In this document: positions 3,661-51,163 of the stretch, in pieces | Numbering within the stretch: the stretch's first letter is position 1 | Layout of the letters: each line of letters starts with the position of its first letter | Source of the DNA: Rhodococcus jostii NBRC 16295 | Lineage (GTDB): Bacteria > Actinomycetota > Actinomycetes > Mycobacteriales > Mycobacteriaceae | Assembly (NCBI RefSeq): GCF_001894825.1 | Contig: NZ_BCWY01000026.1 | Location: 1 to 64,000, forward strand | DNA length: 64,000 bases | Direction: 5' to 3' | Position numbers and translations under genes: made by a program | Notes under the pieces: generated by a model | What the model saw: only the letters and a program-made list of their open reading frames with translations | What the model was told of the DNA's origin: nothing | The model's database searches: none

Positions 3661-4028
3661 CCAGAACTCCTCACGCCGAACTCGACCAACCGCGGAGACC
3701 ACAACCCGTTCCGTCGCGTCGCAGCGTTTGCTGACCGCGGAGGGAACCCGACTGCCGACTACCGAACCGGTGACGATGCCCGATCATTGCCTGACGCCTC
3801 AAGTAAATACTATACAACTTTCTCGGTGATTGTGCCTTGATCTCGGCGCCGGCCGCGCGAGCCCACATCGGAGTCCAACCTGCAAGGAAGCGGAGCAGCT
3901 GATGAATGCGGCCTTCGATGCAGAACCAAGACGAACTGCGAACGTCCGTGTCGTTTCCTCGAAGCGAGGTCTCCCGAATCGGGGGTCCGCCGACTCATGG
4001 AGATGGCTAAAGGGTATGAACCTTAGTC
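3661..4028. other. Intergenic region, 368 bases
   Basis: This gap separates the end of the SDR gene from the racemase start. It contains the racemase ribosome-binding site and the AGTA-N2-TACT site. I see no convincing gene in it. Confidence 0.5.
3802..3811. promoter_or_regulatory. AGTA-N2-TACT palindrome (perfect), upstream of racemase gene
   Basis: The site AGTAAATACT is followed by ATACA, so on the minus strand it reads TGTATAGTATTTACTTGA and overlaps a TATAGT-like -10 box. It lies about 140 bases before the racemase start. Together with the related sites listed below it is inferred to be an operator of a shared regulator. Confidence 0.6.
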
Positions 4029-4874
4029 TCAGACGGGTGCGGGTTTCAGCATCGCTCCGGCATCGACACGCAGGTTGACTCCTGTCATGTAGCGCGACTG
4101 CTCACTGGCGAGGAAGGCAACGACATTGGAGATGTCGATCGGCTCGATATACGGGATCGGCATCGCTTGCATAGCGGGGAACGCATCGACGACGTCCTCG
4201 CGGGTCGGCTCCTCCAAGTCGGGGCGGAAGGCCTTGTATACGTCAATGTTGTGCAGGAGCAGAGTGTTGCAGTTGGTCGGGTGGATTGCGTTGAGTCGTA
4301 TCGATTGTGGAGCAAGCTGCAGGGCCAGCGCCTCGACGTAGCGCGCGATCGTCTGCTTTGCCCACGAGTACCCGGAGCCGCCTGGGCCGAGCTTCTCGGT
4401 GGCTCCCTCGATCATTCCGGCGGTCGAGCCGGTCACGATGATCGACGCTCCGGCCTGCAGATGCGGCAGACTGACCGCGACTGTGTTCATCACTCCGATG
4501 AGGTCGACATCCGTAGCGTCGATGAACGCCTCGCAGCGCGAGCCCCCTTGACCCGGATAGATCCCCGCGTTGGCGACGACGATATCCAGACGACCGAACG
4601 GGGTGAGCCCTTCGGCCACCGCCTCGGTCAGCTGGTGACGGATCCGAACGTCCGCGACGGACGCAACGATTCGCCGGTCGAGCTTTTCGACTTGCCGAAC
4701 GGTCTCGGCCAGATCGTCCGATGTGGCCAACGGATAGTTGACGGTACCGATCTGATCACAGATGTCGACTGCGATAATGTCGGCACCCTCGGAGGCCAGC
4801 CTCACCGCGTGACTGCGGCCCTGCCCTCGTGCAGCCCCCGTTACGAACGCGACTTTACCGTCCAGATTCCCCAT
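4029..4874 (-). CDS. SDR family mycofactocin-dependent oxidoreductase
   Basis: This 281-residue short-chain dehydrogenase has the nucleotide motif TGAARGQGR, an NAG motif, a serine in TGSTAG and the catalytic pair Tyr169/Lys173 in YSWAK. The RGQGRSHA sequence and the long insertion after the first strands are typical of SDRs predicted to hold a non-exchangeable nicotinamide and pass electrons to mycofactocin. The expected reaction is oxidation of an alcohol to a ketone or aldehyde. It lies 139 bases downstream of an aldehyde dehydrogenase on the same strand, which fits an alcohol-aldehyde-acid sequence. The substrate is unknown. Close relatives here are the genes at 10630 and the decayed copy at 35368. 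Confidence 0.88.
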   Translation of the reverse strand: MGNLDGKVAFVTGAARGQGRSHAVRLASEGADIIAVDICDQIGTVNYPLATSDDLAETVRQVEKLDRRIVASVADVRIRHQLTEAVAEGLTPFGRLDIVVANAGIYPGQGGSRCEAFIDATDVDLIGVMNTVAVSLPHLQAGASIIVTGSTAGMIEGATEKLGPGGSGYSWAKQTIARYVEALALQLAPQSIRLNAIHPTNCNTLLLHNIDVYKAFRPDLEEPTREDVVDAFPAMQAMPIPYIEPIDISNVVAFLASEQSRYMTGVNLRVDAGAMLKPAPV

Positions 4875-5013
4875 CAGATGAACCTCTCAATCTCATTTTC
4901 TCGGTGTGGTCCGTGGGCAGACGTTGCGCACCTACAGTCGGGTCGCGCTGTTGGAGCCGTGTCGGTCCCCGCTGCGCTGCGGGTCTGCTTCGATCGCGGG
5001 TGACGGAGAGTAC

Positions 5014-6552
5014 TCACGACCAGGTCAGCGTCTTGAGTTCGGTGAACTCGGCGAGACCGTGCTTTCCCCATTCGCGCCCGAAGCCACTCTGTTTGAATCC
5101 TCCGAAGGCTCCCCACGTTCCGATCGAGGACGGTGCGCGACCCCATCCCGGTCCCTGGTCCTCTCCTGGCGGCTGTTGTGCAACTGATCCGTTCACCTCG
5201 GTCTGAACCGCCATGTATCCCGAGCGGATCTTGCGAGCGACGTTGAAGGCGCGAGTCGTGTTCGCGGACACGACTCCGCCGGCCAGACCAAAGATGGTGT
5301 CGTTCGCCAGGTGGACGGCTTCGTCATCCTCGCCGCTATACTCGATCACGGTCAGAACCGGGCCGAAGATTTCCTCCTGCGCGACCCGCATGTCATTGCG
5401 CGCATTCATCAGAACCGTGGGTTCGTAGTAGTAGCCGTACTTCATGTGGTCAGGGCGCCTTCCTCCCACAAGAACGCTTGCGCCCTCATCTACACCTGAC
5501 TGCACCATGCGCTCCACACGGTCGCGTTGCTCGGCCCTGATCAGGGGGCCCAGCGTGGTGCTCTCGTCGCGCGGATCGCCAATCTTGACCGCGGCGTAGG
5601 CAGCGTTCACGCCCGCGACGTAGGCGTCGCGCAGATGGGCCGGCAGCAGCAATCTGCTCTGCACGACGCAAGCCTGACCGCAGTGGGCAAGGACGTCCGT
5701 GAAGCCTACTGAGGCGGCGTAGTCCTCCGAAACGTCGCCGAGGACCACGCGTGCGCTCTTTCCCCCCAACTCCAGTTTCACTCGCTTGATCGTCGCTGCC
5801 GCGTTGGCCATGATGCTCCGGCCGGTCACAGTCGATCCAGTGAACGTGACAAGGTCGACCAACGGACTCGCAGTCAAAAGGTTTCCGACCTCGGCACCGC
5901 CCGACACGACGTTGACAACCCCTGGGGGTATGCCGGCATCCGTGGCAGCGCGTGCGATCTCATACGCGTCCAGCGGAGTCCAGGGGTGAGGTTTGAGGAC
6001 CACAGTGCATCCGGCGGCAATCGCCGGGATCGTCTTGAACAGGTTAATTTGGAACGGGAAGTTGAACGGCGTGATGGCACACACCACACCGGCCGGCTCG
6101 CGTACGACGGCAGTGCCTCCCATACCGCTCAGGCCACCGACCGGCAACCCCATCTCGACCCAGTCGAGCGCGCTGTGCAGGTTGTCTCCGTACCAGTGAA
6201 CCGCATCGACGGCGCCGGCGCACTGGATGAAATCGACGGTGCCGATGCTGTTGCCGCCTACTGTGGCACCCGTCTCGGCCACGATGAGGTCGTGAAGCTC
6301 GGGGTGGCGCTCGGTCAGAATGTTCGCCATCCTCTTGATGGCACGTCCCCGTTCGACAGGGGTCGTTTGAGGCCACGGGCCGGTGTCGAATGCTCGGCGT
6401 GCGGCCTCTATCGCCCGTCGGGCATCCTCTGCCGTGGCGTCCGGGACCGTACCGATGATCTCTTCGTCGGCAGGGTTGAGAACTGTGATGCGTTCGGCGC
6501 TCGAGGATTCCACCTCACGACCGTCGATGTACAGATCATGGTTCCACTTCAT
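5014..6552 (-). CDS. NAD(P)-dependent aldehyde dehydrogenase
   Basis: About 512 residues long, this is a standard ALDH-superfamily enzyme with the ELGGKSA motif, the catalytic cysteine in GQACVVQS (Cys295) and the EEIFGPVLTVI motif. It should oxidise an aldehyde to the acid. The start at 6552 is preceded by a GGAGG ribosome-binding site; an upstream in-frame start would add 56 residues with no resemblance to ALDH. Near the C-terminus a Gly/Pro-rich stretch (about residues 450-475) is inserted before GGFKQSGFGRE, longer than usual. It probably forms an operon with the SDR at 4029. A one-mismatch operator site lies about 275 bases upstream. Confidence 0.9.
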   Translation of the reverse strand: MKWNHDLYIDGREVESSSAERITVLNPADEEIIGTVPDATAEDARRAIEAARRAFDTGPWPQTTPVERGRAIKRMANILTERHPELHDLIVAETGATVGGNSIGTVDFIQCAGAVDAVHWYGDNLHSALDWVEMGLPVGGLSGMGGTAVVREPAGVVCAITPFNFPFQINLFKTIPAIAAGCTVVLKPHPWTPLDAYEIARAATDAGIPPGVVNVVSGGAEVGNLLTASPLVDLVTFTGSTVTGRSIMANAAATIKRVKLELGGKSARVVLGDVSEDYAASVGFTDVLAHCGQACVVQSRLLLPAHLRDAYVAGVNAAYAAVKIGDPRDESTTLGPLIRAEQRDRVERMVQSGVDEGASVLVGGRRPDHMKYGYYYEPTVLMNARNDMRVAQEEIFGPVLTVIEYSGEDDEAVHLANDTIFGLAGGVVSANTTRAFNVARKIRSGYMAVQTEVNGSVAQQPPGEDQGPGWGRAPSSIGTWGAFGGFKQSGFGREWGKHGLAEFTELKTLTWS

Positions 6553-7268
6553 CTTCGGTTCCTCCGCCTCGGTTGCCGACCGACCGATCTGCTGTGTCTC
6601 GAACTCGTACGGACCGCCGGGGATGGCCACCCGTCTCCAGCGAGGCGGCCCACAGATTGGGCGACTCTCCGCTCCGCACCTGCTCTTCGGCGACGGCGCG
6701 CGGGTGGCCGCCAAAGCCAAGGGCGTCGCCGATCACGATCGGCCTCTTTCAACGATCTCCGTCGCGTCTGATCCGCGACGAGGGGTGTGCCGTCCGTCAC
6801 AGTATTGAAGGACCGCTTCTCTGTCAAGTAAATGCTATACATCTATAGTGAATCGATGCGCACACGGCGTGTGCCCGCTGCCGCGTCGGGGCCGACCACG
6901 GTCACCGCTGCGATGTCGCCTTGCTGCGGGGCGTGCCTCCGTGCTGGGCTAGGCCTTCCGCATCACGCTGAAGCCTATTTCTCCTTTCGCCGTTGATCGT
7001 TGGGGCCTGGGTCGCCCGTCACCACGCCGCGCATAGCCGTGTCGGCGCGCCGGTCGGCTTGAGCCGCGACAGACCGGAGGCCGTTGTCGAGCGGCAAGCC
7101 AGTGAACTGGGGGTTGGGTTCGCCGAACCGCGCTCGTCGAGGTGGTCGGGCGGACATGGGAACAGCGACCGATCATGGGCGTTTTGAACCGGGATCCACT
7201 GACGCGGCGACCGGCGCCAGCGGTGCAGGCAGGACCGCAACCGACACCGCCACGAAAGGGGACACATC
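6553..7268. other. Intergenic region, 716 bases
   Basis: This region lies between the divergently read aldehyde dehydrogenase and DoxX genes. It contains the site at 6827 and the ribosome-binding site of the DoxX gene (AAAGGGG near 7255). The overlapping frames seen in it look like random high-GC reading frames, and I recognise no gene. Confidence 0.5.
6827..6836. promoter_or_regulatory. AGTA-N2-TACT-like site (one mismatch), upstream of aldehyde dehydrogenase
   Basis: The site AGTAAATGCT is flanked by GTCA before and ATACA after. On the minus strand it reads TGTATAGCATTTACTTGACA, almost the same extended sequence as at 3802. It is inferred to be an operator/promoter for the aldehyde dehydrogenase-SDR pair. 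Confidence 0.5.
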
Positions 7269-7802: not shown

Positions 7803-8139
7803 AGGATATTCCGAGAACATTCGGCGCGCGAATCCGTATGTGACGTAGTCGCGACCTACGCGCACTCGGGTGGTCGCCTGACTTCAATGAGGGCGGAGGT
7901 GATCATGCTGCGGTCGCCAACCATCACCATCACGCGCAGCCCGAACGCGGTGCGCACGGTCTCGACGAGGGGCGGGGTCGGCGGTGTTCCCAAGATCACC
8001 AGCACCGCGCGATCGGGCGGCACACCGGGTCGGTCGGCGACCGTATTCGATCGGCGAGAGTCCTTCTTGTCCCGCGCTGCCGGCCGGGACAATCGAAGCG
8101 GTACGCGCGGCACCGCCCCGCGCCGCGACGGTGACGACC

Positions 8140-8340
8140 GGGACAGTGGAGGTGACGCGGTCGCTGCCGCACGGTCACGTGGCCGCGGTCGCCACGCAGG
8201 CCGGGCGCTGGGTCTGCTGACGCTGCCTGACCCGGCCGGCCGGGCCGGGGCCTGGCGCTGGCGGTGACCATCGCCCGAGTGACCCGCCTGCCTCGCACCC
8301 GGCTGGCTCGCCATATGGCAACCGCCCCAACATCACAGCG
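8140..8340 (+). pseudogene. IS1634-type transposase N-terminal fragment
   Basis: The frame reading VEVTRSLPHGHVAAVATQAG, followed after frameshifts by LALAVTIARVTR, resembles the N-terminal part of IS1634/IS4-type transposases, where SLPHGHVAAV and RDLALALI-ARV occur in this order. Only about 200 bases are recognisable and stops interrupt it. It is a dead fragment; the family call rests on these two motifs. Confidence 0.5.
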
Positions 8341-8792: not shown

Positions 8793-8802
8793 AGTACTCA
8801 CT
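8793..8802. promoter_or_regulatory. AGTA-N2-TACT-like site (one mismatch), upstream of MftD-like gene
   Basis: The site AGTACTCACT follows CTGTAT, so the strand reads TGTATAGTACTCACTTCATG in the direction of the gene, matching the extended form seen elsewhere. It ends 30 bases before the TTG start, so the TATAGT element could be the -10 box of a short-leader transcript. Confidence 0.55.
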
Positions 8803-8832: not shown

Positions 8833-10014
8833 TTGTCCATTGACCGTCGAGGGCGTACTCAGGGCGACTATCGCCTTCCATATCGCTGGCACTTCGATTC
8901 GGTCGCCGAAGCAGAGGCCCTGGCGCGCAAAGTCCTTCCCCGCGCTATGTATCTTCGCCTCAATAGCGGTGCTGGCGAGAGCCGAACGATGCGGGCAAAC
9001 GGACAAGCATACGGTGACGTGACATTCCGCCCACGAGCGGCGACCGTCCCGCCGATCCGCGCGACATCGACCACCATTCTCGGCGTTCCGATCACTGCAC
9101 CGGTATTGTTGGCGCCGGTCGGCGCCCTCAGGCTGCAGCACCCCGAAGGGGCCGCCGCAGCAGTGGACGCGGCTGGGCAGTTCGGCACAATCTGCGCCAT
9201 CAGCCCGGCCTCGGGACACTCCTTCGACGAGCTTGCATCGAGATCCGGCGCCACACCACTATGGTCCCAGGTCACCACGGCGATCGGAGGTCGAGATGGC
9301 GCCGAGAAGCAGATCGCCACGGTGCACGACCTGGGATACCACGCGCTCGTTGTGACTGTAGATTCAGCGCTGCGCCCCAAAGTTCCACCGATTCGATTGA
9401 ACACCCGCACGGTCGTCGGATTTGCGCCCGATCTCATCCGTCACCCGCGTTGGACGGCAAAGTTTGTGCGGGATGGAATGCGTTTGGGCGTCGCGAATCG
9501 GGCCGTCGGAGCCACACCCGATCCCGACGCTCGCCCGCTTGCATGGGATGACCTACGTTGGATGTCCGAGTTGTGGCGCGGGCCGATCGTAGTCAAGGGC
9601 ATTTTGACGGCCGATGATGCCCGACGAGCAGTTGATCTCGGCGCTGCAGCGATCGTCGTCTCCAACCACGGCGGACTCACCCTCGACGATGTTCCTGCCA
9701 CTCTCAGCGTGCTGCGGGAAGTCGTCGAGGCGGTGAATGGACAAGTGCAGGTACTTATCGACGGTGGAATCCGTTCCGGCAACGATGTCGTCAAGGCGGT
9801 GGCGCTCGGTGCTGACGCTGTTCTCGTCGGCCGCGCCTATGTGATGGGTCTCGCTGCGGGTGGCGCCGCCGGCGTCGGGCGTGTCCTCGATATTCTTCAG
9901 GATGATATCCAGCGTGCGCTGGCGTTTCTCGGCTGTGCGTCGATTGATGAAGTCGACCTTTCGCACGTCCGAATTCCTGCAGACTGGGCCAGCATACGTA
10001 GCGAACTCAATTGA
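8833..10014 (+). CDS. MftD-like FMN-dependent alpha-hydroxy-acid dehydrogenase homologue with altered active site
   Basis: The 393-residue protein is a flavin TIM barrel of the glycolate oxidase/lactate dehydrogenase family. By memory of the sequences it is closest to MftD of mycofactocin biosynthesis, sharing FAP-x2-I-x-P-x-W, an AWDDLRWMSELW-like segment, SNHGG, IDGGIRSGNDVVKA and ADAVLVGRAY. The catalytic histidine is kept (His279 in SNHGGLTLDD). The position of the substrate-carboxylate arginine that follows SNHG(G/A) in glycolate oxidase is Leu282, and the usual FQLY tyrosine region reads LWSQVTT. A normal alpha-hydroxy-acid substrate is therefore unlikely. The TTG start at 8833 has AGGAGG six bases upstream. 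A cupin gene follows closely. Confidence 0.8.
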   Translation: MSIDRRGRTQGDYRLPYRWHFDSVAEAEALARKVLPRAMYLRLNSGAGESRTMRANGQAYGDVTFRPRAATVPPIRATSTTILGVPITAPVLLAPVGALRLQHPEGAAAAVDAAGQFGTICAISPASGHSFDELASRSGATPLWSQVTTAIGGRDGAEKQIATVHDLGYHALVVTVDSALRPKVPPIRLNTRTVVGFAPDLIRHPRWTAKFVRDGMRLGVANRAVGATPDPDARPLAWDDLRWMSELWRGPIVVKGILTADDARRAVDLGAAAIVVSNHGGLTLDDVPATLSVLREVVEAVNGQVQVLIDGGIRSGNDVVKAVALGADAVLVGRAYVMGLAAGGAAGVGRVLDILQDDIQRALAFLGCASIDEVDLSHVRIPADWASIRSELN

Positions 10015-12670: not shown

Positions 12671-12680
12671 AGTAAGTAAC
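12671..12680. promoter_or_regulatory. Weak AGTA-N2-TACT-like site (two mismatches)
   Basis: AGTAAGTAAC follows TATCA and precedes AACTATACTAG. It shares the AAGTAAGTA half with better sites, but its second half is poor. It may serve the SDR gene, whose start is about 277 bases away. Confidence 0.3.
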
Positions 12681-12740
12681 AACTATACTAGTATGACCCA
12701 TTGGCGCAAGGCTTGCGCCTCTACCACGGCACGTATATAG

Positions 12741-12750
12741 AGTATCTACT
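12741..12750. promoter_or_regulatory. AGTA-N2-TACT palindrome (perfect), upstream of beta-propeller gene
   Basis: AGTATCTACT lies within ATATAGAGTATCTACTTACC, 77 bases before the start of the Asp-box protein gene. It is a perfect match to the shared palindrome. Confidence 0.55.
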
Positions 12751-12826: not shown

Positions 12827-13873
12827 GTGGTGGACTATTCGATCTGTCTGGCCACGACAGGAGCCGGGCTGTGGACGAGTCACGATGGTGGCAAGAGTTG
12901 GATCCTGTCGCATTGCGACAATCCGAAGTATCCCTACGAACTGTGTGTCCGGGCGATTACCGCGTCCCCTGATGGTTCCGGCGCGGTGTGGGCGACGATC
13001 GATTCCGAACGCGGCGAGGACATTCTGGCCCGGAGCGTCGACCGCGGCGAAACGTACCAGTACGTGGGTGTTCCGGCCCAGGGTAGGCAGGTACTCAGCC
13101 TGGCCGTCGACCCGCACTCTCCACGGACAATCTTGGCTGGCACACGGCCGGGCGGAGTCTTCCGCAGCACCGACGGCGGTGTTAACTGGACCGAACTTCC
13201 CGTCGGAGTGTCGCCGGAATGCAGCATCGGTGCGACCCGGGTGACTGCGATCCGATACACCGATGTCCCCGGCGAAATCTGGGTGTCGGTCGAGATCGAC
13301 GGGCTGTACCACAGCACAGATGGGGGTGGGAGCTGGCGACGGTTCGAGGTATCCGGAGGGCAGGTACTCCTCGGTGAGGGTGAGATCTGGAAGGACGAAC
13401 GCCACGCCGACATACACGATGTGGTTGCCGGACGCAGCGCCGACGGAAGGCGCAGCGTTTTCGTTGCCACCCCGATCGGGTTCTTTGCATCCGACGACGG
13501 CAATCGTACGTGGCGGTGCACGCGGTACCCGGTCGACGACACGTACGAGTCATCGCTTTTCTATACCCGCAGCCTCCACGCCAATGCCGCCGAGCCTTCC
13601 GTGCTGGTCGTGGGCGTGGGCCGTCGCCCACCGGACCACGGGTCGCTGGGCGCGATTCATCGCAGCGAAGACGGCGGCCTCACCTGGCGGCCGGTCAGCC
13701 CGGTCCTGCGCTCGGTCGTGTGGAAGATCGCCGGACACCCGCACGACGCCAACGTGCTCGCTGCGGTCACGCTGTTCGGACAGGTCGCGACCACGACTGA
13801 CGGCGGCTCGTCGTGGCAGCTATGCGAACGTGAGTTCGGCGAGATCCGCGGCGTGGCAGTGGTCGGGTCATGA
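12827..13873 (+). CDS. Asp-box (BNR-repeat) beta-propeller protein
   Basis: The 348-residue protein contains repeated Asp-box motifs (S/T-x-D-G-G-x-S/T-W): SHDGGKSW, STDGGVNW, STDGGGSW, SEDGGLTW and TTDGGSSW, spread over the whole length. This predicts a multi-bladed beta-propeller of the sialidase/Ycf48/sortilin-type fold. No signal peptide is visible, so it is probably cytoplasmic. It starts with two GTG codons (12827 and 12830); either could be used. It heads a same-strand series with an aldehyde dehydrogenase and a small barrel protein. I cannot assign an activity; assembly factor, hydrolase or lactonase-like role are all possible. Confidence 0.8.
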   Translation: MVDYSICLATTGAGLWTSHDGGKSWILSHCDNPKYPYELCVRAITASPDGSGAVWATIDSERGEDILARSVDRGETYQYVGVPAQGRQVLSLAVDPHSPRTILAGTRPGGVFRSTDGGVNWTELPVGVSPECSIGATRVTAIRYTDVPGEIWVSVEIDGLYHSTDGGGSWRRFEVSGGQVLLGEGEIWKDERHADIHDVVAGRSADGRRSVFVATPIGFFASDDGNRTWRCTRYPVDDTYESSLFYTRSLHANAAEPSVLVVGVGRRPPDHGSLGAIHRSEDGGLTWRPVSPVLRSVVWKIAGHPHDANVLAAVTLFGQVATTTDGGSSWQLCEREFGEIRGVAVVGS

Positions 13874-20086: not shown

Positions 20087-20096
20087 AGTACTTACT
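20087..20096. promoter_or_regulatory. AGTA-N2-TACT palindrome (perfect), upstream of reductase gene
   Basis: AGTACTTACT lies in GGTTAGTACTTACTACATTA between the reductase start (19937) and the 3' end of the acyl-CoA synthetase gene. It is a perfect palindrome of the shared motif and suggests that the reductase has its own promoter. Confidence 0.6.
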
Positions 20097-21815: not shown

Positions 21816-21825
21816 AGTACAGACT
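21816..21825. promoter_or_regulatory. AGTA-N2-TACT-like site (one mismatch), upstream of cupin-like gene
   Basis: AGTACAGACT follows GTATGTAT, giving TGTATAGTACAGACT in gene direction, as at 8793. It ends 18 bases before the GTG start, immediately before the AAAGGAGG ribosome-binding site. Confidence 0.5.
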
Positions 21826-24986: not shown

Positions 24987-25024
24987 GATGACCTATCGGA
25001 GAGTGCCGGGCCGGTTCGATGTGT

Positions 25025-27739: not shown

Positions 27740-27763
27740 ATGACGCCCACGATCAGCATGTCA

Positions 27764-27773
27764 AGTAAGTACT
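27764..27773. promoter_or_regulatory. AGTA-N2-TACT palindrome (perfect), upstream of ABC importer
   Basis: AGTAAGTACT follows ATGTCA. On the minus strand it reads GGATAGTACTTACTTGACAT, matching the extended form at 3802 and 6827. It lies 83 bases before the binding-protein start. Confidence 0.6.
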
Positions 27774-30335: not shown

Positions 30336-30373
30336 GTTCTGTGTCTCCGTTCTCGGTTCAGGTGAAAATCGAA

Positions 30374-31576: not shown

Positions 31577-31589
31577 CAGTCGAACTCCC

Positions 31590-32017: not shown

Positions 32018-32027
32018 AGTAAGTACT
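32018..32027. promoter_or_regulatory. AGTA-N2-TACT palindrome (perfect), upstream of OB-fold/thiolase unit
   Basis: AGTAAGTACT follows GTAGTAA and precedes CCACAACTATAAG. It lies just upstream of the OB-fold protein gene and faces the site at 32197 across the divergent region. Confidence 0.6.
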
Positions 32028-32196: not shown

Positions 32197-32206
32197 AGTG
32201 TCTACT
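32197..32206. promoter_or_regulatory. AGTA-N2-TACT-like site (one mismatch), upstream of acyl-CoA dehydrogenase
   Basis: AGTGTCTACT lies in GCTGTAGTGTCTACTTTCAT, 50 bases before the GTG start of the dehydrogenase at 32257. The half-site TACT is intact. Confidence 0.5.
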
Positions 32207-34438: not shown

Positions 34439-34448
34439 AGTAACTACT
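34439..34448. promoter_or_regulatory. AGTA-N2-TACT palindrome (perfect), between hydratase and small isomerase-like gene
   Basis: AGTAACTACT lies in TCGAAGTAACTACTATCCG. On the minus strand it reads GGATAGTAGTTACTTCGA, the same extended form as at 27764. It can serve both divergent genes. Confidence 0.6.
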
Positions 34449-35172: not shown

Positions 35173-35188
35173 GGACCACACTAAGTAT

Positions 35189-35198
35189 AGTGCCTACT
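35189..35198. promoter_or_regulatory. AGTA-N2-TACT-like site (one mismatch) between ABM-like and dead SDR genes
   Basis: AGTGCCTACT lies in AAGTATAGTGCCTACTTGAC, which in plus direction matches the extended form TATAGTA-N2-TACTTGA. It is only 17 bases from the ABM-like start and 170 bases before the SDR-like gene. Confidence 0.5.
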
Positions 35199-35367
35199 TG
35201 ACTTGTCTGCGACGGCGTCATTAGGCTCGGTTTTCCAGCGGCGTGGGTACAGAGCGGGACGACTATGGCCGGCACACCGGCGAGTCGATCATCGCACCGG
35301 AGTCGCCTCGCCATGCTCCGGTCCGCCGCGAAGCCACTACCGTTGCGACAGAACAGGAGATATCCCA

Positions 35368-39895: not shown

Positions 39896-41536
39896 TCAGT
39901 GCGACGAAGGGGTACTGACCGAGGACATCTCGGCGATCCACTCGTCGCGCACGGTGCGTTTGACGACCTTTCCGGTGGCGTTCTGAGGTAGTGGTTTCAG
40001 ACTGATTCGCCACCGGGTAGGTACCTCGAAATACGCGAGTTGCTCGCGTGCGAACGCGGCCAGTTCCTCCTCGGTTACGGTCGAGTCGTCACGGAGAACG
40101 ACGATCGCACCGACCTCTTCCCCGAGGTTCGGGTGGGGTAGCCCGACCACGGCCACCTCCCGGACGCCGGGGTGCTCGAGCAAACGGTTCTCCACGTGGG
40201 GTGTGGCTATGTTTTCACCACCGCGGATCACGATGTCTTTGCGGCGGTCGGTGACATAGAGGAACCCATCGTTGTCGAGCCGGCCGATGTCACCGGTCCG
40301 TAGCCACCGGTCCGGTGTGATCGGATCGTCGACCGGCTCGAGTGAGCGCTCCTCCGCGGTCCAGTACTGCAACATTACCGATGGGCTGCGGACGAGGATC
40401 TCGCCTTCGCCGTTCTCGTCCGGGTTTTCGATCCGGATGGTGACGACGGGTAGTGGGCGTCCCACAGAACCGGGCCTGTTGACGAGGTCGGCGCCGATCC
40501 CGGTGGCCAGGACACCACCGCCCTCGCTGAGCCCGTAGGTGACCGCAACGCCCCGGGAGGCGTTGGGAAACCATCGCGGAACCTTGTTCCGCAGCTGGGC
40601 CCCGACCGGGGAACCGCCCAGACCGACCGTTCGCACTGATGAGGCACCTTCGTGCCCCACTGCCTCCATGTGGTCCATGACGCGGCTGACCAGCGTTGGA
40701 ACCGTCGACCACACTGATACCTGTTCCTCGTCGAGCAATCGTAGAACCTTCTGCGGATCGAACCGTCCCTCTGTGAAGACGAGGGATCCGCCCGCCAGCA
40801 TCGGGGTGATGATCTGCTGCAGTCCACCGACGTGGAAGAGAGGGATACTCAGCAGCGCAGTGCTCGGTGCGGGCAACTTGCTGCTGGCCCCTGGGAGGCG
40901 GCGGGTCAGCAGCGCGAGGCTCTGCAGGGTCGCCAGGACGCCTCGGTGTGAGAGGACTGCCCCCTTGGGCAGGCCCGTTGTTCCGGAGGTGAACAGGACG
41001 ATCGCGGCGTCGTCCTCGGTTGCGGTAGGACGGGTGATCGCGGGGGCGGCGTCGCCTTCGAGTGTGCTTGTGATGTCGGCGAAATCGATCCGCTCCTGGG
41101 TGTCCGGCAGGAGGGGCGCCCGCACGTCGTCGGCGACGACGTAGCGGGGCGTCACCGTGCGTAGCGCATGGTCTACTTCGGTCCGGCTCCACCAGGCGTT
41201 CGCCAGCACGACCACAGCACCCGATCTGATCACCGCCCAGAACGCGACGACCCACTCGATTGAGTTCGCCCCGAACAGCATGACGCGATCCCCGGGGCGC
41301 ACGCCGCGTTCATCGAGTAGCGCGGTGATCCGGTCGACGGCGACTTCGTGTTCCGCGAACGACATGCGTCGCGATCCCTGTACAAGGTAATTTCGATCGG
41401 TGAAGCGTCGCCCGTCGGCGAGTAGGTCCGCGATGTGATGCCGGCGCTTGACGAAGCTGAGGCACGGGTGGCCGAGGACCTCGATCTCCGCTACGTCGCT
41501 ACCCCATGAATCGCCGGATTCGATGATGTCCGTCAT
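39896..41536 (-). CDS. AMP-forming acyl-CoA synthetase
   Basis: The 546-residue enzyme has LFTSGTTGLPKGAVLSH, VTYGLSEGGGV, DRWLRTGDIGRLD and the C-terminal KDIVIRGGENIATPHVE, ending with PQNATGKVVKR that holds the catalytic lysine. It activates an acid to its CoA ester. The ATG at 41536 is followed by a promoter region with an operator-like site about 25 bases upstream. The acyl-CoA dehydrogenase gene at 41594 is immediately upstream on the same strand, so it may be partly co-transcribed. Confidence 0.9.
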   Translation of the reverse strand: MTDIIESGDSWGSDVAEIEVLGHPCLSFVKRRHHIADLLADGRRFTDRNYLVQGSRRMSFAEHEVAVDRITALLDERGVRPGDRVMLFGANSIEWVVAFWAVIRSGAVVVLANAWWSRTEVDHALRTVTPRYVVADDVRAPLLPDTQERIDFADITSTLEGDAAPAITRPTATEDDAAIVLFTSGTTGLPKGAVLSHRGVLATLQSLALLTRRLPGASSKLPAPSTALLSIPLFHVGGLQQIITPMLAGGSLVFTEGRFDPQKVLRLLDEEQVSVWSTVPTLVSRVMDHMEAVGHEGASSVRTVGLGGSPVGAQLRNKVPRWFPNASRGVAVTYGLSEGGGVLATGIGADLVNRPGSVGRPLPVVTIRIENPDENGEGEILVRSPSVMLQYWTAEERSLEPVDDPITPDRWLRTGDIGRLDNDGFLYVTDRRKDIVIRGGENIATPHVENRLLEHPGVREVAVVGLPHPNLGEEVGAIVVLRDDSTVTEEELAAFAREQLAYFEVPTRWRISLKPLPQNATGKVVKRTVRDEWIAEMSSVSTPSSH

Positions 41537-41558: not shown

Positions 41559-41568
41559 GGTATTTACT
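41559..41568. promoter_or_regulatory. AGTA-N2-TACT-like site (one mismatch), upstream of acyl-CoA synthetase
   Basis: GGTATTTACT lies in TATAGTGGGTATTTACTTTTCAAG, only 22 bases before the synthetase start. The TACT half is intact and a TATAGT element is eight bases away. Confidence 0.4.
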
Positions 41569-41593: not shown

Positions 41594-42808
41594 TCAGCGG
41601 GGCAGCCCGAGAACGCGCTCGGCGAGAATGTTCCGCTGGACCTCGTCCGTCCCACCGCCGATGCGCAGACCGGGTTGTCCCAGGACGAGTTCTGACCACA
41701 TGTAGGTTGCGGGCTCCCCGGTGTTCGCGACGATTCGGGGCCCCAAGGCATGCGATACCAACCGGCTCAGAGATGCCAGGTTGTTCGTCAATGCGAGCTT
41801 GCCGATGGACATCTCGGGACCCGGACGCTGCCCCGCCCGCAACCGTGCCTGACTCCGCAACCGGGTCCACTTCGCCACCGCAAGTTCGCTATGCAGGCGC
41901 ATGAACTCCTGCCGCATCACCGGATCGTCAGCTCGCCCGAATCGGCGCAGAAGCGACGCGAGTCGTTCGGTACTGAAGATCCCGCTGCCGCCGGCGGCCG
42001 GACCACCCACCGCGGCGCGTTCGTTCATCAAGGTAGCGATCACGACCTCCCATCCCCGGTCGACCTCACCCAAGCGCAGCTCGTCCGGGATCCACACATC
42101 GGTAAGAAACACCTCGTTAAACGATGATCCGCCCGTCATCTGTCGGATCGGTTTTACCGCGACTCCCTCGCTGTCAATCGGCAACGCAAACGCAGTGAGG
42201 TTCGCGTGCCTCTTGTCAGGGTCGCCGGTGCGGCACACCAGCAAACCGAGAGCACTCAGATGTGCGCCCGAACTCCAGATCTTCTGCCCGTTGATGCGCC
42301 ATCCCTCGCCCTCGCGGACCGCGCGGGTCGCGATTCCGGCCAGGTCTGAACCGGCCCCCGGCTCGCTGAACAGCTGGCACGCGACGATATCGCCGCGGTG
42401 CAGCGCAGTCAGGTAGCGGGACTTGGCGGTGTCGGACCCGTATGCGAGCAGCGTCGGGGCGACCATACCGATTCCGATGTCGTAGATGCGTTGCGCAGGA
42501 AACGTGTAATTGCGCTCGAGGCTCTGATACGCGCGTTCGTGGGCGGAGGTCATCCCGGCGCCGCCGTGCTGGGTCGGGCCGGTGATCCACCCGAATCCGG
42601 CGTCGAACCGCTGTTGCCGCCACGACCGTGCCGCGGACATTTCCGCGGCTTCCTCGTCGGGGGTCAGATCAGGGAACAGTGCGACGCGTTCAGGCGTGGA
42701 CGCGTCAGCCTCGGTAGCCCCGTCACCCCTCCACTGATCGGCTGCCGATTCGAGGAATTGCCTTGCTGTGTCGATAAATTCGGAGGACACATCGACGAGG
42801 TTCGTCAT
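41594..42808 (-). CDS. Acyl-CoA dehydrogenase, large-subunit type
   Basis: This 404-residue enzyme has the N-terminal FPDLTPDEEAAEMSAARSWR, then QLFSEPGAGSDLAGIATRA, WSSGAHLSALGLLVCR, and the C-terminus GGGTDEVQRNILAERVLGLPR. It is a FadE-type flavoenzyme. The start at 42808 is preferred to 42829 because the earlier codon directly abuts the operator-like site, but both are possible. It is divergent from the CoA-transferase gene. Confidence 0.88.
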   Translation of the reverse strand: MTNLVDVSSEFIDTARQFLESAADQWRGDGATEADASTPERVALFPDLTPDEEAAEMSAARSWRQQRFDAGFGWITGPTQHGGAGMTSAHERAYQSLERNYTFPAQRIYDIGIGMVAPTLLAYGSDTAKSRYLTALHRGDIVACQLFSEPGAGSDLAGIATRAVREGEGWRINGQKIWSSGAHLSALGLLVCRTGDPDKRHANLTAFALPIDSEGVAVKPIRQMTGGSSFNEVFLTDVWIPDELRLGEVDRGWEVVIATLMNERAAVGGPAAGGSGIFSTERLASLLRRFGRADDPVMRQEFMRLHSELAVAKWTRLRSQARLRAGQRPGPEMSIGKLALTNNLASLSRLVSHALGPRIVANTGEPATYMWSELVLGQPGLRIGGGTDEVQRNILAERVLGLPR

Positions 42809-42834
42809 GACGATTTGCTCGCTTTCCATAAGTT

Positions 42835-42844
42835 AGTAAGTGAT
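42835..42844. promoter_or_regulatory. Weak AGTA-N2-TACT-like site between dehydrogenase and CoA-transferase
   Basis: AGTAAGTGAT followed by ATACC reads GGTATATCACTTACTAAC on the minus strand. The left half is intact, the right half has two mismatches, but the flank resembles the extended form. It lies in the 130-base divergent region. Confidence 0.35.
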
Positions 42845-44170: not shown

Positions 44171-44869
44171 CTACTTGGAGGTCTTTTTCCGCTGCTTCTC
44201 TCGGACACCGCTGGTGAACAGCGTCGTCAGCCGTTCGGAGGCCTCTGGCAGGTCGAGCTTGCGGTAGCGCAATATCAGGTCTAGTCCGATCGCCCATTGC
44301 GATCCGAGGATCGCCCGCCTGACCAGGTCCGGTTCCAGGCCGCGGTCCGCCCACCCCATCCGATCCGCGAGGAGCACACCGATCCGGTCCAGAATCGGCT
44401 TCAACGATTCCTGATAGAGCCGTCGACCACTGCCCAGTTCGGAGTACAGGGCGACAGCCTGGATCGCCGCTGACTCCGTGTAGAAGCGCAGGCACCGCTC
44501 GTTCACGGCGTTCATGAACTCGATTCGGTCGTCGTACCGGTCGTAGAAGACCTGGATGTCGTAGGCAAGAGCGGCGAGACCGCTGCGGAGCGGCTCGACG
44601 ATCGCAACCTCGTACATTTCCTCTTTGGAGGCGAGATGACGGTACAAGAACGCCTCGGTCACGCCTGCACGCTCGGCGATCTCCTTTGTCCGCGCGCCGC
44701 TGTAGCCCTGTTCGATGAACACCTCGCTGGCCGCGGCGATGATCTTCTTGCGCCGTTCGGCTGCCGATAGGCGCACCTGTTTGGGGCGCTCGACCGCTGT
44801 TCTCGAGTCAGCAGACGCGTCCTCGTCCGCGTGGGAATCCTTCGCTGTTCTGCCGGTCTGTCGTGCCAT
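44171..44869 (-). CDS. TetR-family transcriptional regulator
   Basis: The 232-residue protein has an N-terminal helix-turn-helix (ERRKKIIAAASEVFIEQG, then TKEIAERAGVTEAFLYRHLA, about residues 35-80) preceded by a 30-residue polar tail. The C-terminal ligand domain is typical in length. Its start lies three bases after the stop of the enoyl-CoA hydratase, so both are one unit. It is a paralogue of the TetR at 45802, sharing RSRDIADRAG/RTKEIAERAG and YLYRH/FLYRH. Acyl-CoA-like ligands are usual for TetRs in such clusters. Confidence 0.9.
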   Translation of the reverse strand: MARQTGRTAKDSHADEDASADSRTAVERPKQVRLSAAERRKKIIAAASEVFIEQGYSGARTKEIAERAGVTEAFLYRHLASKEEMYEVAIVEPLRSGLAALAYDIQVFYDRYDDRIEFMNAVNERCLRFYTESAAIQAVALYSELGSGRRLYQESLKPILDRIGVLLADRMGWADRGLEPDLVRRAILGSQWAIGLDLILRYRKLDLPEASERLTTLFTSGVREKQRKKTSK

Positions 44870-44872
44870 TTC

Positions 44873-45664
44873 TCACCGTCCCTGGAACTGTGGGCTGCGC
44901 TTGTCGAGGAAGGCTCGGCGGCCCTCCGCGAAATCCTCTGACTGTCGGCATTGTGCAGCGAGTGCTGCGAGGGCTTCCGCATCGCGGTCGCCGGCGCATT
45001 TGCGACTTTCACCCAGGGCGCGCTTTGTCGCGACGATCGCGAGCGGCGCGTTCCGGGCGATCGAACCGGCGACATCCTGCACGGTGGTCAGCAGTTCGCC
45101 GGGCGCCACGACTGCATTCACCAGCCCGGCCGCATATGCCTGCTCGCCGGACCACTTGCGCGCCGTGAAGAGCAGTTCAGCCGCGCGCGGGTATCCCACG
45201 GCGGCGACGAGTGGATCGACGTCGACATAGGCCATTCCCAGCCGCGCAGCGGGGACCCCCACTAGCGCGTCCCGCGTCGAGTACCGCAGGTCAGTCGCCA
45301 ATGCCAATGCTAATCCGCCTCCGAGGCATGCTCCCTCGATCATGGCGATCGACGGGACGGGGAGCGTCCGAACTCGCGCGAGCATGGCTTCGTAGTGCGT
45401 ATCCAGCGACGATGCGTCCCCTGATTGCGGAGTGTCCGCGACGGCGCTGAGGTCTGCCCCCGCGCAGAAAGCACGACCGCCAGCGCCTCGAAACACAATT
45501 ACACGGGCTCCGGCGCTGCCGATCAGGTCGTCGAGGACCTGCGGGATCGCCCGCATCATCTCGGGTGTGAGTGCGTTGCGTCGTTCGGGAGTGTTCAGCA
45601 CAACCCAGCCGACGCGTTCGGTCACCTCGACGAGGATCTGATCGGTCGGTGAATTGACCGTCAC
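44873..45664 (-). CDS. Enoyl-CoA hydratase/isomerase
   Basis: The 263-residue crotonase-fold enzyme has FRGAGGRAFCAGADLSAV, IEGACLGGGLALALATDLRY and VGVPAARLGMAYVD; the last lacks the canonical hydratase glutamate at the same place. The start is a GTG with GAAGGTGG upstream. It is followed by the TetR at 44171 with a gap of three bases. It acts on an enoyl-CoA intermediate of the pathway. Confidence 0.88.
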   Translation of the reverse strand: MTVNSPTDQILVEVTERVGWVVLNTPERRNALTPEMMRAIPQVLDDLIGSAGARVIVFRGAGGRAFCAGADLSAVADTPQSGDASSLDTHYEAMLARVRTLPVPSIAMIEGACLGGGLALALATDLRYSTRDALVGVPAARLGMAYVDVDPLVAAVGYPRAAELLFTARKWSGEQAYAAGLVNAVVAPGELLTTVQDVAGSIARNAPLAIVATKRALGESRKCAGDRDAEALAALAAQCRQSEDFAEGRRAFLDKRSPQFQGR

Positions 45665-45801: not shown

Positions 45802-46440
45802 CTACCGCGGTCGTCTCCCCACACCGACCGCGAACATCGTGGTCACCTGTTCCGCCACGACAGGCACGTCCACCGGCTTGTCCTCGAGCAGGTGTTCAAG
45901 CGCGATGGTGAGATGAATGCCGATCATTGCATCGACGAAGAGATCGAGCTCGATTGCCTTCGTTGGATAGCCGGTGATGTCGGGGATGACAAGCGCGAGC
46001 ACGTCGCGCAGTCGGGGGAACAGGTAGTCGGCGTAGAACTGGTTTTTTCCGGTTCCTCCCGATAGCAGCGCCGCGGCCACGAGGGGGGCGATCTCGACCA
46101 TGCAGCCGAGGAGGAGTTCGTGTGTACGCCGCACCACTTCGACCCGATCGACGTCGTTGCGGGCGGCCAGCTCGCGGGTGTCGTTACTGAGAACGGTGAT
46201 CATTCGATCGAGAGGTTCGTCGATCGCGAGCTGGAAAAGCTCGTCCTTCGAATGGAAGTGGCGGTACAGATACGCCTCGGTGATGCCGGCGCGGTCCGCG
46301 ATGTCGCGCGACCGTGCACCGTTGACGCCTTCTTCGACGAAGACTTCGCGGGCCATGGCGATGATCTGGGTCCGGCGTTCAGCGGCGGTGAGACGCTTGC
46401 GCGCTTCCGGCCGATCGCCCGGCGCAATTGATCGGGTCAT
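45802..46440 (-). CDS. TetR-family transcriptional regulator, candidate regulator of the AGTA-N2-TACT regulon
   Basis: About 212 residues. The helix-turn-helix (ERRTQIIAMAREVFVEEG, then SRDIADRAGITEAYLYRHF) lies at about residues 17-62, followed by an all-helical ligand domain. The start at 46440 has GGGGG upstream; the frame extends 22 residues further without similarity. The 320-base region upstream carries a weak operator-like site at 46495 and a perfect one at 46570, so autoregulation is plausible. That makes it the better candidate of the two TetRs for the shared regulator. It is divergent from the MaoC gene. Confidence 0.9.
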   Translation of the reverse strand: MTRSIAPGDRPEARKRLTAAERRTQIIAMAREVFVEEGVNGARSRDIADRAGITEAYLYRHFHSKDELFQLAIDEPLDRMITVLSNDTRELAARNDVDRVEVVRRTHELLLGCMVEIAPLVAAALLSGGTGKNQFYADYLFPRLRDVLALVIPDITGYPTKAIELDLFVDAMIGIHLTIALEHLLEDKPVDVPVVAEQVTTMFAVGVGRRPR

Positions 46441-46494
46441 CCCCCGAACTCTAGCAGTGCCTCCCGCTGAAGCTTCGGAAATATGCACGATTGT

Positions 46495-46504
46495 AGTAAA
46501 TGAC
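46495..46504. promoter_or_regulatory. Weak AGTA-N2-TACT-like site upstream of TetR gene
   Basis: AGTAAATGAC follows TTGT and precedes ACACC. Only the left half is intact. It lies 55 bases from the TetR start and resembles the site at 42835 (AGTAAGTGAT). Confidence 0.35.
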
Positions 46505-46569
46505 ACACCATAAAGCTGGCTAATCCCAGGCAGACCGCGTATTTAGGGCTCAGTCACATCAACTTTGAT

Positions 46570-46579
46570 AGTAAGTACT
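46570..46579. promoter_or_regulatory. AGTA-N2-TACT palindrome (perfect) in TetR/MaoC divergent region
   Basis: AGTAAGTACT lies in TTGATAGTAAGTACTTGACA. The TTGACA that ends it could be the -35 box of the MaoC promoter, and on the other strand the sequence reads TGTCAAGTACTTACTATCAA. It is the best placed operator for an autoregulated TetR. Confidence 0.6.
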
Positions 46580-46760
46580 TGACAATATTACGAGGTGGAG
46601 GCATGCTCGAATCCGAGACCGGCTCCCATCCGGGACGTTGAGGCCCAGCATGGGCACTCCGACGCCGGTCGCCCTGCGCGCGATCTCGACACGGCCCGAC
46701 CGTTCGACGCGACGCCGACACGCATGACTCCCCGACCGAGCACACCGAATGGAGCTCCAG

Positions 46761-47930
46761 ATGTCGCAATCCGTGGTCGACCACGTCACCGGTAGTGGCG
46801 AGGACAAGTACGCCAAAATCACCGACCGAGCGCTCGACGACCTACGCAGCCTGATCGGGGTTCCGATCACCGACACCGTCGAACCGTGGTGCTACGAGGC
46901 CACCCGGGACAACATCCGCCACTACGCCCACGGCATCGGCGATGACAACCCCCTGTGGTCGGATCCCGATTACGCTGCCACGACACACCATGGCACTCTC
47001 GTCGCGCCACCCAGCTTCGCGTTCGCCCTGAGCCGGATCCTGTCCGGGTACGTCGGCGGACTGCCCGGCGTGCACGCTATGTGGGCCGGCGCGGACCTCA
47101 CCTGGCACCGGCCGATCCTGCGCGACACCCGTATCCGTACGTCGGCGTACCTGAAGGACCTCGTCGAGCACGACACACGCTTCGCGGGCCGGGCCTTTCA
47201 GCAGATCTACCACGTCGAGATCACGTCCGAGGGAGGCGAGCCGCTGGTCTCCGGCGACTCCTGGTGCTTCCGCACCGAACGTGACGCAGCGCGCGAGCGG
47301 GGTTCGAAGTACAGCGAGCAGAAGGCTCTCGGGAAGACTCGTTACACCCAGGACGATCTCGACCGCATTTACGCGCTGTACGAGCAGGAGTCGATCCAGG
47401 GCGCGACGCCGCGATACTTCGAGGACGTGGAAGTCGGGCAAGAGCTTGCCCCGATGGGCAAGGGCCCGATGACGGTGACGGGCTTCATCGCGTTCGCACA
47501 GGGGTGGGGTGGTCTTTACATCCGCGCCAACAAGATCGCGTATCAGCAGATCAAGAAACACCCCGGTCTCGGCATCCCCAACGCGCTCGGCATCCCCGAC
47601 GTCCCCGAGCGCGTGCATTGGGAGGAGGAGCTCGCCGCCGATGTCGGCACACCCGGTGCCTACGACTACGGCCCGGAGCGTTGCTCCTGGCTGACCCACC
47701 AGCTCACGAACTGGATGGGCGACACCGGTTTTCTCGCACGGCACACGGCGCAGATCCGTCACCACAACATCGTTGGTGACGCGGTGACCATTACCGGTCG
47801 AGTAACCGACAAGAGCATTGACGAGCAGGGGCGCTCATGCGTCACGATCGAACAGCAAGCGCATAACCAGCACGGCAACGTGTCCGCCATCGGAACCGGA
47901 GTCGTCGTGCTTCCCAATCGCACCGTCTGA
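46761..47930 (+). CDS. Double-hotdog MaoC-type dehydratase
   Basis: This protein of about 389 residues has two hotdog regions. The first contains YEATRDNIRHYAHGIGDDNP with LWSDPDYAATTHHG and HAMWAGADLTWHRPI. The second contains YFEDVEVGQELAPMGKGPMT and SWLTHQLTNWMGDTGFLARH. Such fused MaoC/FAS1-like dehydratases hydrate enoyl-CoAs or bind bulky acyl groups. The start at 46761 has GGAG seven bases upstream; an ATG at 46749 is the alternative. A near-perfect terminator follows. Confidence 0.85.
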   Translation: MSQSVVDHVTGSGEDKYAKITDRALDDLRSLIGVPITDTVEPWCYEATRDNIRHYAHGIGDDNPLWSDPDYAATTHHGTLVAPPSFAFALSRILSGYVGGLPGVHAMWAGADLTWHRPILRDTRIRTSAYLKDLVEHDTRFAGRAFQQIYHVEITSEGGEPLVSGDSWCFRTERDAARERGSKYSEQKALGKTRYTQDDLDRIYALYEQESIQGATPRYFEDVEVGQELAPMGKGPMTVTGFIAFAQGWGGLYIRANKIAYQQIKKHPGLGIPNALGIPDVPERVHWEEELAADVGTPGAYDYGPERCSWLTHQLTNWMGDTGFLARHTAQIRHHNIVGDAVTITGRVTDKSIDEQGRSCVTIEQQAHNQHGNVSAIGTGVVVLPNRTV

Positions 47931-49956: not shown

Positions 49957-51126
49957 CTACGCGTGTTGCCGGAATCGGTGGCCGGGGAATAGCTGTGCGG
50001 CGATGGCGTTACGCAACACCGGCGGCGATCCACCGGCGACCATCGCAGCGATCGCGTCGCGGTGCAGACGTTGTATCGGGAAGTCCAGCGTCGCACCGTC
50101 GCCGCCGTGGAGGAGAACCCCTTGCTGTGTCAGGTTCGGGAGCATTGTCGCGCCGGACAGCTTGGAAACCGTGGAGTCGAGCGGTCGCGGGAATCGCGAA
50201 TCGATCGCGGTGACCGCGGCCTTGTAGGTGAGCAGCCGGTGCGCCTCAATCGCGACGTGCATGTCAACGAGTGAGTGGTATGTGGCCTGGAACTCGATGA
50301 TGGGACGTCCGAAAGACTTACGTTCCTCGCAGTACCGGACTGTCTCCTCGTATGCGGCCTCCGCAAAGGCGAGGCTGTAGATCGAATTATGCAACCGCTC
50401 CATGTTGAAAGCGGTCATCAGGTCGGAGAATCCTCCTGCGCCACGGATGAGATTGATCCTGGGCACGCGGCATTCGTGCATGTGGACCTCGCCGTGAGGC
50501 AGCCCCCGCGATCCTACGAACTGCGCACCGGGCTCCAGATCAAGCCCGGGGGTCCCCTTCTCCACGAGGATGCACCCCACCCCTTTCGCGCCGGGGATGT
50601 CGTCGAAACGGGCAAATACGGCGTAGATCTCGTTCTCGGGAGACCCGGTAATGAACCGCTTCGAACCGGTAACGATGTAGTCGTCACCGTCGAGCACCGC
50701 AGTTGTCTCGAGGTCCGTCAAATCAGACCCGTGATCGGGTTCGGTCAATGCGATCGCACAGCCCTTCAACCCGTTGACGATGTCGGGGAGAAATTTACGC
50801 CGGGTCTCCTCCTGTTCGGCGAGCAGAACCATGGAGGGTCCCGGACCTGTAGTGCAGAACGGGGGTTCCCCGAGAATCCAACTCTGCGACGAGCGGAACA
50901 GTTCCTCGACCACGATGACGTAATCCAGGGCTGTGCCACCCTTGCCGCCGTATTCGGTGGGGATGGTCAGCCCGAGCAGTCCTGCCTCGCGCATCGACTC
51001 GGTGACCTCACGGTAGGGGCTGGCATCGTCGCGATCCCAACTCGTGTGCCGTCCGCGCCAGGCCATTCCCGCCTTGTGGGCGCGCTCCTTGAGTTCAAGC
51101 TGCTCGGGCGTGAAGTCGAAGTCCAT
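49957..51126 (-). CDS. Acyl-CoA dehydrogenase
   Basis: The 389-residue enzyme has GLTIPTEYGGKGGTALDYV, ALTEPDHGSDLTDLETTA, VTGSKRFITGSPEN and the C-terminal VLLHGGDGATLDFPIQRLHRDA. The last helix contains GGSPPVLRNAIA where many members have the catalytic EGT-x-E motif, so the catalytic base may be elsewhere. The start has GGAGG upstream. A perfect operator-like site lies about 30 bases before it, in the region shared with the divergent acyl-CoA synthetase. Confidence 0.88.
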   Translation of the reverse strand: MDFDFTPEQLELKERAHKAGMAWRGRHTSWDRDDASPYREVTESMREAGLLGLTIPTEYGGKGGTALDYVIVVEELFRSSQSWILGEPPFCTTGPGPSMVLLAEQEETRRKFLPDIVNGLKGCAIALTEPDHGSDLTDLETTAVLDGDDYIVTGSKRFITGSPENEIYAVFARFDDIPGAKGVGCILVEKGTPGLDLEPGAQFVGSRGLPHGEVHMHECRVPRINLIRGAGGFSDLMTAFNMERLHNSIYSLAFAEAAYEETVRYCEERKSFGRPIIEFQATYHSLVDMHVAIEAHRLLTYKAAVTAIDSRFPRPLDSTVSKLSGATMLPNLTQQGVLLHGGDGATLDFPIQRLHRDAIAAMVAGGSPPVLRNAIAAQLFPGHRFRQHA

Positions 51127-51153
51127 TGTGCCTCCGATTGACCGGATAATATT

Positions 51154-51163
51154 AGTAGGTACT
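51154..51163. promoter_or_regulatory. AGTA-N2-TACT palindrome (perfect), between dehydrogenase and acyl-CoA synthetase
   Basis: AGTAGGTACT lies in ATATTAGTAGGTACTATACA. On the minus strand it reads TGTATAGTACCTACTAATA, the extended form with TATAGT. It can control both divergent genes. Confidence 0.6.

Follow-up and report, generated by a model that had tools for sequence, protein, structure and literature searches.

In the 64,000 nucleotides of Rhodococcus jostii NBRC 16295 analysed here (contig NZ_BCWY01000026.1, positions 1 to 64,000; hereafter the window), the palindrome AGTA-N2-TACT recurs between the genes of a large catabolic cluster. We consider it highly likely that this motif is the operator of TetR-A, a TetR-type protein encoded in the cluster, perhaps together with its paralogue TetR-B, and that it keeps the acyl-coenzyme A (CoA) catabolic cluster repressed until a pathway intermediate releases the regulator. 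Our computations revealed that the motif is local, that its sites are conserved, that the operator co-occurs with relatives of TetR-A in another family and that several sites overlap -10-like boxes; what we infer beyond this is that the regulator binds there, that it represses instead of activating, and what its ligand is. According to the proposed mechanism, TetR-A, with or without TetR-B, would recognise AGTA-N2-TACT, often in a form lengthened to ACTATAC at one end, and would bind over the -10 box and start of some fourteen or fifteen promoters, its own included, thereby blocking RNA polymerase. Release of the regulator would be brought about by a pathway intermediate, most likely an acyl-CoA, and would lead to joint induction of the importer, CoA ligases, acyl-CoA dehydrogenases, hydratases, thiolase and short-chain dehydrogenases/reductases (SDRs). 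The motif precedes most promoters of the cluster, whose pathway is very probably turned on and off together by a TetR-type switch of its own, as in cholesterol degradation.

A palindrome concentrated in one catabolic cluster

An earlier sequence-only reading of the window had listed eight exact copies of the palindrome, all of which we recovered (the sites marked exact in Table 1), and six copies with one mismatch (6827, 8793, 21816, 32197, 35189 and 41559), each of which indeed deviates at exactly one base. Allowing up to one mismatch, the window holds 18 matches (8 exact and 10 more), compared with a mean of 2.70 in shuffled sequences, and none of 100 shuffles reached 18. All eight exact matches and 16 of the 18 are noncoding, at a noncoding share of the window of 22.1%; this share stems from a hand-made gene list, and 53629 counts as noncoding only with the open reading frame (ORF) 53242-53676 omitted. 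Absent from the earlier list were 53629, the two coding matches 32600 and 55132, and 12675, which is the better register for what had been given as 12671. That position belonged to five sites described as weaker, which fared differently: 42835 is unchanged in the sister cluster discussed below, and 18882, which is damaged there, is probably no real site.

Pattern scans of the whole genome (9.73 Mb) returned 22 exact matches, 9 of them on the contig of the window, and 573 places with up to one mismatch, which corresponds to about 3.8 expected per 64 kb as against the 18 in the window. At the genomic rate, the Poisson probability of at least eight exact sites per 64 kb is 4e-12. The 14 exact places outside the window are divided equally by a crude ORF call, 7 inside ORFs and 7 between them, and we take them as mostly background. 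The enrichment is local, and the bare word is not promoter-bound elsewhere in the genome. Whether the motif is just as common in coding DNA, a check proposed with the earlier reading, has to be answered separately for its forms: it is not for the sites of the cluster and for the extended word, and it is for the bare 10-mer outside the window, as expected of background. Chance or base composition as the source of the motif is rejected by the shuffles, the genome rate and the restriction to one contig.

With up to one mismatch, the extended word AGTANNTACTATAC occurs at 11 places in the genome, all on the contig of the window (10 in the window, 1 at 67709); up to two mismatches give 37 rows. The two-armed form TATAGTANNTACTTGA is found at 7 places with up to two mismatches, again all on this contig (6 in the window, 1 at 67710), and in 30 rows with up to three. 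Since both extensions were derived from the window sites, their own match is built in, and the informative part is that no equal match exists elsewhere in the genome. The statement that many sites have the longer two-armed form did not hold, as TATAGTANNTACTTGA is perfect at 3802 only. Instead, the usual extension is one ATAC arm, which lengthens one side of AGTA-N2-TACT to ACTATAC (GTATAGT on the opposite strand). A perfect GTAT arm is present in 7 of the 15 sites examined, always on one side only, and five of these seven arms face the nearer gene start.

A plasmid of Rhodococcus sp. JS3073 (1.39 Mb) carries the same cluster with 94.8% identity over the 25 kb compared, and 8 of its 9 exact AGTA-N2-TACT sites fall within the cluster. 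Among the 17 of 19 sites that could be aligned, 9 of 340 site bases are changed (3 of 136 in the core, 6 of 204 in the arms) compared with 128 of 1177 bases in neighbouring noncoding sequence (Fisher P 3e-7, core and arms together). Two of the three core changes belong to a deletion in the weak site 18882, and the third affects the mismatched base of 21816. The remaining two sites, 3802 and 6827, lie outside the aligned blocks because JS3073 lacks the segment between them at the same place; a single operator is left there, which aligns with 3802.

TetR-A as the candidate regulator

Both TetR-A and TetR-B belong to the TetR family, with TetR_N (PF00440) scores of 52.5 and 53.2 against a gathering threshold of 24. 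The palindrome stands on promoters of catabolic genes as well as on that of the regulator itself, which is the arrangement of a KstR-like local repressor. Among the indications on the regulator, we weigh most the sequence comparison with close relatives in G498 and G530, two genomes of another family within the same class (class draw). G498 has one TetR match, with its gene at 160851, whose recognition helix (GITEAYLYRHFKSK) agrees with the TetR-A helix in all but 1 of 14 residues. Around this gene, within 17.3 kb (C14:154524-171823), lie 6 of the 7 rows of AGTANNTACTATAC with up to two mismatches, representing 5 distinct places. G530 has 9 rows, namely 2 on C294 and 2 on C244, both with double-TetR relatives, 3 on C235 and 2 elsewhere. 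C235 carries apparent orthologues of window genes by best tblastn match (thiolase 71%, FAS1-type dehydratase 66%, acyl-CoA dehydrogenases 62 and 63%, SDR 63%, oligonucleotide-binding (OB) fold protein 56%), and its site 8259 is located between the dehydratase and an acyl-CoA dehydrogenase, the window counterparts of which have the sites 46570 and 51154. A site is found upstream of the FAS1-type dehydratase in the window, G498 and G530 (apparent orthologues), and upstream of the acyl-CoA dehydrogenase 49957-51126 in the window and of its apparent orthologue in G530.

As controls served stretches of a Mycobacterium branderi plasmid (36 kb) and of the Sphingomonas plasmid pJE1 (32 kb), which encode related enzymes and no annotated TetR; neither holds an exact or extended site. 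The related genes on the M. branderi and Sphingomonas sp. JE1 plasmids stand among similar neighbours. The initial proposal of one large regulon under one protein, probably a TetR, is supported, as a local regulon with predicted binding by a TetR encoded nearby, by the contig restriction, the conservation in JS3073, the extended site near TetR-A relatives and these site-free controls without an annotated TetR.

Beyond these close relatives, further relatives were found at the thresholds used in 6 other genomes out of 251 (family draw) and in 1 other out of 249 (order draw), and near 6 of the 8 TetR genes inspected palindromes of the form AGTNAGT-N4-ACTNACT were seen by eye. For a fresh test on the class draw, a 520-base upstream stretch was taken per locus, and 27 of 28 loci were scored (L065 was dropped, as its helix was not found); one place lacking a locus and two own-genome rows were likewise excluded. 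With at most two mismatches, the palindrome occurs upstream of 14 of the 27 wider relatives, which come from few families and are not independent, and shuffles lead to an expectation of 0.08. A peptide-pattern search of contigs yielded nine distant loci with relatives, and exact AGTA-N2-TACT occurs at none of the nine. A profile of the A/B subclade at E 1e-30 hit the own genome only among 396 from the phylum, a draw that differs from the class draw with G498 and G530. The window sites share the AGT-N4-ACT core but not the outer AGTN arms, and it is therefore this core that connects them with the wider family.

Proposed repression, likely ligand and competing explanations

The overlap of the palindrome with a TATAGT-like -10 box, claimed in the sequence-only reading, applies to several sites. 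In a plain promoter scan, the -10 element falls on the TATAGT of the operator at 8793, 21816 and 51154, where 23 to 35 bases separate the palindrome centre from the start codon. Of the 9 promoter-like matches in 2000-56000, 7 coincide at least in part with an operator. A site placed over the -10 region, as that of KstR is, speaks for repression; we regard the overlap as support and not as proof. An acyl-CoA is a likely ligand, judging from the CoA-ester pathway and from the predicted model of TetR-A, which is all-helical (mean predicted local distance difference test score, pLDDT, 67 from a two-sequence input) and matches the structures of FadR, FasR and KstR2 among many TetRs.

Several observations weigh against this interpretation. 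The sigma70-like matches are no commoner than in shuffles (9 versus about 10), and the overlap of operator and promoter is partly built in because the motif itself contains TATAGT. Two of the seven GTAT arms do not clearly point to the nearer gene: 35189 is undecidable and 12675 is directed toward the farther start. In G498, the TATAGT arm of the site immediately upstream of the dehydratase is found on the opposite strand. In G183, G050, G403 and G222, the TetRs of which are further off, the extended word is scattered and not clustered, with the exception of one G403 match beside its TetR. Of the wider relatives, 13 of 27 stay below the threshold, including the G498 protein, whose sites have the form of the window instead, and the window shows no enrichment of the outer AGTN arms that the wider family has (11 versus 8.05 expected). 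Finally, the TetR-A model is weak given its pLDDT and input, with root-mean-square deviations of about 7 to 12, and its match to FasR is no better than those to CecR, RutR and others.

The repressor model could tentatively take a form in which TetR-A and TetR-B share their sites but act as separate homodimers, each with its own ligand, so that two inputs act on one operator. The paralogues have similar recognition helices and are encoded on one strand as part of three genes in a row, which would fit such a division of labour; the single family match beside the same operator in G498 speaks against it.

It appears rather doubtful that the two proteins preferentially form a heterodimer on a symmetric core with unequal arms, GTAT being on one side and often toward the promoter. 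This idea draws on Mce3R, a double-TetR chain discussed below, and on the C294 regulator of G530, a single 429-residue chain that combines two TetR units and is encoded beside the same operator. Its first half scores 155 bits with A versus 102 with B, and its second half scores 105-110 with B versus 60-67 with A. In a tree, the second half groups with B at weak support (69/92) and on a long branch, and the first half is not resolved. However, both halves of the C244 fusion score higher with A (145 and 116 versus 112 and 107), the best match of TetR-B in the compared set is TetR-A and not the fused half, and in G498 the operator is accompanied by one protein only. To our knowledge, a heterodimeric TetR from two genes would be unusual, and the matches listed in an open-access literature search for one concern other things. 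The two double-TetR proteins of G530 (L105:9777-11066, 429 aa; L104:10003-11679, 558 aa) are both encoded among catabolic genes.

An activating role of TetR-A, comparable to that of FasR on fas-acpS, is improbable. FasR is the best-matching curated family and is described as an activator (PMC7382501). However, the scores (48.4 for TetR-A and 53.3 for TetR-B against a cut-off of 330 for NF053731) are far too low and cover the helix-turn-helix (HTH) only, and several sites lie on a -10-like box a few tens of bases upstream of the start codon, a position at which a dimer, once bound, would be expected to block.

Even less probable is a different reader of the motif, such as the AefR-like TetR at contig position 67753, outside the window, or the HTH-TetR fusion 54510-55313. 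An exact site with a TATAGT arm is located 35 bp before the 67753 gene in its own promoter, and a one-mismatch match (55132) lies inside the fusion gene. However, no exact site stands beside 54510-55313, and upstream of the relatives of the 67753 TetR the palindrome family is found with up to two mismatches in 0 of 7 cases, the best being three mismatches in one relative. The G064 relative (78% identical) has kept the TATAG box and an inverted repeat AATGAA..TTCATT, but not the palindrome, and with these results the AefR-like TetR is rejected as reader of the motif. Its gene is divergent from a 2-oxoacid dehydrogenase operon, with the exact site at contig position 67713 (L042:3713). The fusion protein combines an N-terminal XRE-type HTH (HTH_31/HTH_3) with TetR_N and TetR_C_6.

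It is highly improbable that the motif is mainly a promoter element for one sigma factor, i.e. a shared -10 form TATAGT with its context, since in spite of the TATAGT arm and the overlap with promoter-like sites both core halves are conserved in JS3073, the palindrome is common to sites of which just 7 of 15 have the GTAT arm, and the extended word is confined to the contig of the window and found around TetR-A relatives in another family.

Known regulons and the organisation of the cluster

The proposed control by TetR-A resembles the KstR regulon, for which PMC1995591 describes a TetR repressor, a short palindrome over the putative -10, autoregulation and many intergenic sites before catabolic genes. 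Whereas KstR governs cholesterol and lipid catabolism in mycobacteria and rhodococci, the sites found here are concentrated in one cluster. TetR-A and TetR-B score 20.6 and 21.1 with the KstR model (NF033703, cut-off 280), and the window is not enriched in the KstR palindrome TnnAACnnGTTnnA (10 matches with up to one mismatch versus 7.1 by chance); its single exact match, 55974, lies inside ORF 55536-57140. KstR2, also a local TetR whose palindromes lie in a cluster for the catabolism of CoA esters (PMC3068626), is similar as well, but it has three motif instances per genome, compared with about 15 in this cluster, and the KstR2 motif AnCAAGnnCTTGnT has no window match with up to one mismatch. 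The motif is therefore rejected as a KstR or KstR2 site. FasR of M. tuberculosis, an acyl-CoA sensor and activator of fatty acid synthesis (PMC7382501), is, judged by HTH sequence, the closest of the curated families and one of the closest solved structures. Mce3R is comparable to the two G530 relatives in being a double-TetR chain and folds as a pseudo-heterodimer on an asymmetric operator (PMC11667970); TetR-A and TetR-B are, in contrast, separate ORFs and the operator core here is symmetric. Among the matches listed in open-access literature searches, AGTANNTACT together with TetR was not found, and AGTAAGT with TetR and "binding site" led to unrelated work.

The comparisons lend good support to one TetR-controlled regulon with predicted binding. 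It would work like KstR regulons, although neither the scores nor the motifs place it with KstR, KstR2 or FasR. What emerges for this large catabolic cluster is a putative operator, a candidate for its regulator and a list of targets, and the ligand of TetR-A could point to the substrate of the cluster. Besides, the fused G530 relative bears on the pairing of paralogous TetRs as a possible step between homodimers and double-TetR chains such as Mce3R.

The cluster encodes CoA ligases, acyl-CoA dehydrogenases, enoyl-CoA hydratases, a thiolase with its OB-fold partner and SDRs, two of which are of the mycofactocin-coupled type. In addition, it contains aldehyde dehydrogenases, CaiB-type CoA-transferases, MaoC and FAS1-type dehydratases, an amidohydrolase and a sugar-type ATP-binding cassette (ABC) importer (Table 1). 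No annotation on the related M. branderi and Sphingomonas sp. JE1 plasmid genes names a substrate; open-access literature searches returned nothing on JS3073 or pJE1, and a search with the words of the cluster gave nothing on it among the matches listed.

Table 1. Putative operators, candidate regulators and the gene between them in the window.
Feature	Position	Strand	Remarks
Putative operator, exact	3802..3811	-	TATAGT arm on minus strand; before CaiB-type CoA-transferase 2566-3702; 0 mismatches to AGTANNTACTATAC; JS3073 counterpart AGTAATTACT
Putative operator, 1 mismatch	6827..6836	-	before aldehyde dehydrogenase 5014-6720; without counterpart in aligned JS3073 stretch
Putative operator, 1 mismatch	8793..8802	+	TATAGT overlaps promoter-like -10 of 8833-10014
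Putative operator, 1 mismatch	12675..12684	-	ATAC arm present; replaces register 12671
Putative operator, exact	12741..12750	+	before 12827-13873 and aldehyde dehydrogenase 13998-15527
Putative operator, exact	20087..20096	-	before ferredoxin-reductase-like gene 18948-19937
Putative operator, 1 mismatch	21816..21825	+	TATAGT is promoter-like -10 of 21844-22590
Putative operator, exact	27764..27773	-	before ABC importer genes 23877-27759
Putative operator, exact	32018..32027	-	before OB-fold/thiolase/SDR genes 29394-31997
Putative operator, 1 mismatch	32197..32206	+	before acyl-CoA dehydrogenase 32257-33456
Putative operator, exact	34439..34448	undefined	between enoyl-CoA hydratase 33530-34354 (-) and 34498-34755 (+)
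Putative operator, 1 mismatch	35189..35198	+	between 34786-35181 (-) and SDR 35203-36117 (+)
Putative operator, 1 mismatch	41559..41568	-	before acyl-CoA ligase 39896-41536
Putative operator, weaker	42835..42844	-	before acyl-CoA dehydrogenase 41594-42829; unchanged in JS3073
TetR-B, paralogue of TetR-A (40% identity)	44171..44869	-	same strand as TetR-A, probably same operon
Enoyl-CoA hydratase	44873..45664	-	between TetR-A and TetR-B genes
TetR-A, best candidate regulator	45802..46506	-	TetR_N; relatives located among same extended sites
Putative operator, exact	46570..46579	undefined	between TetR-A (-) and FAS1-type dehydratase 46749-47930 (+)
Putative operator, exact	51154..51163	-	on promoter-like -10 of acyl-CoA dehydrogenase 49957-51126; divergent ligase 51264-52946

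For the importer binding protein, the longest ORF starts at 27759, within a promoter-like site and 5 bp away from the operator 27764; its actual start may lie further downstream. In the stretch 3749-7252, the segment absent at the same place in JS3073 comprises SDR and aldehyde dehydrogenase genes between the operators 3802 and 6827, and the surroundings of these two operators have TCAAGTAAAT[AG]CTATACA in common. A gain or loss of these two genes may have occurred between operator repeats. Further downstream, about 215 bp (8068-8282) are inverted in JS3073 relative to the window, with 83% identity.

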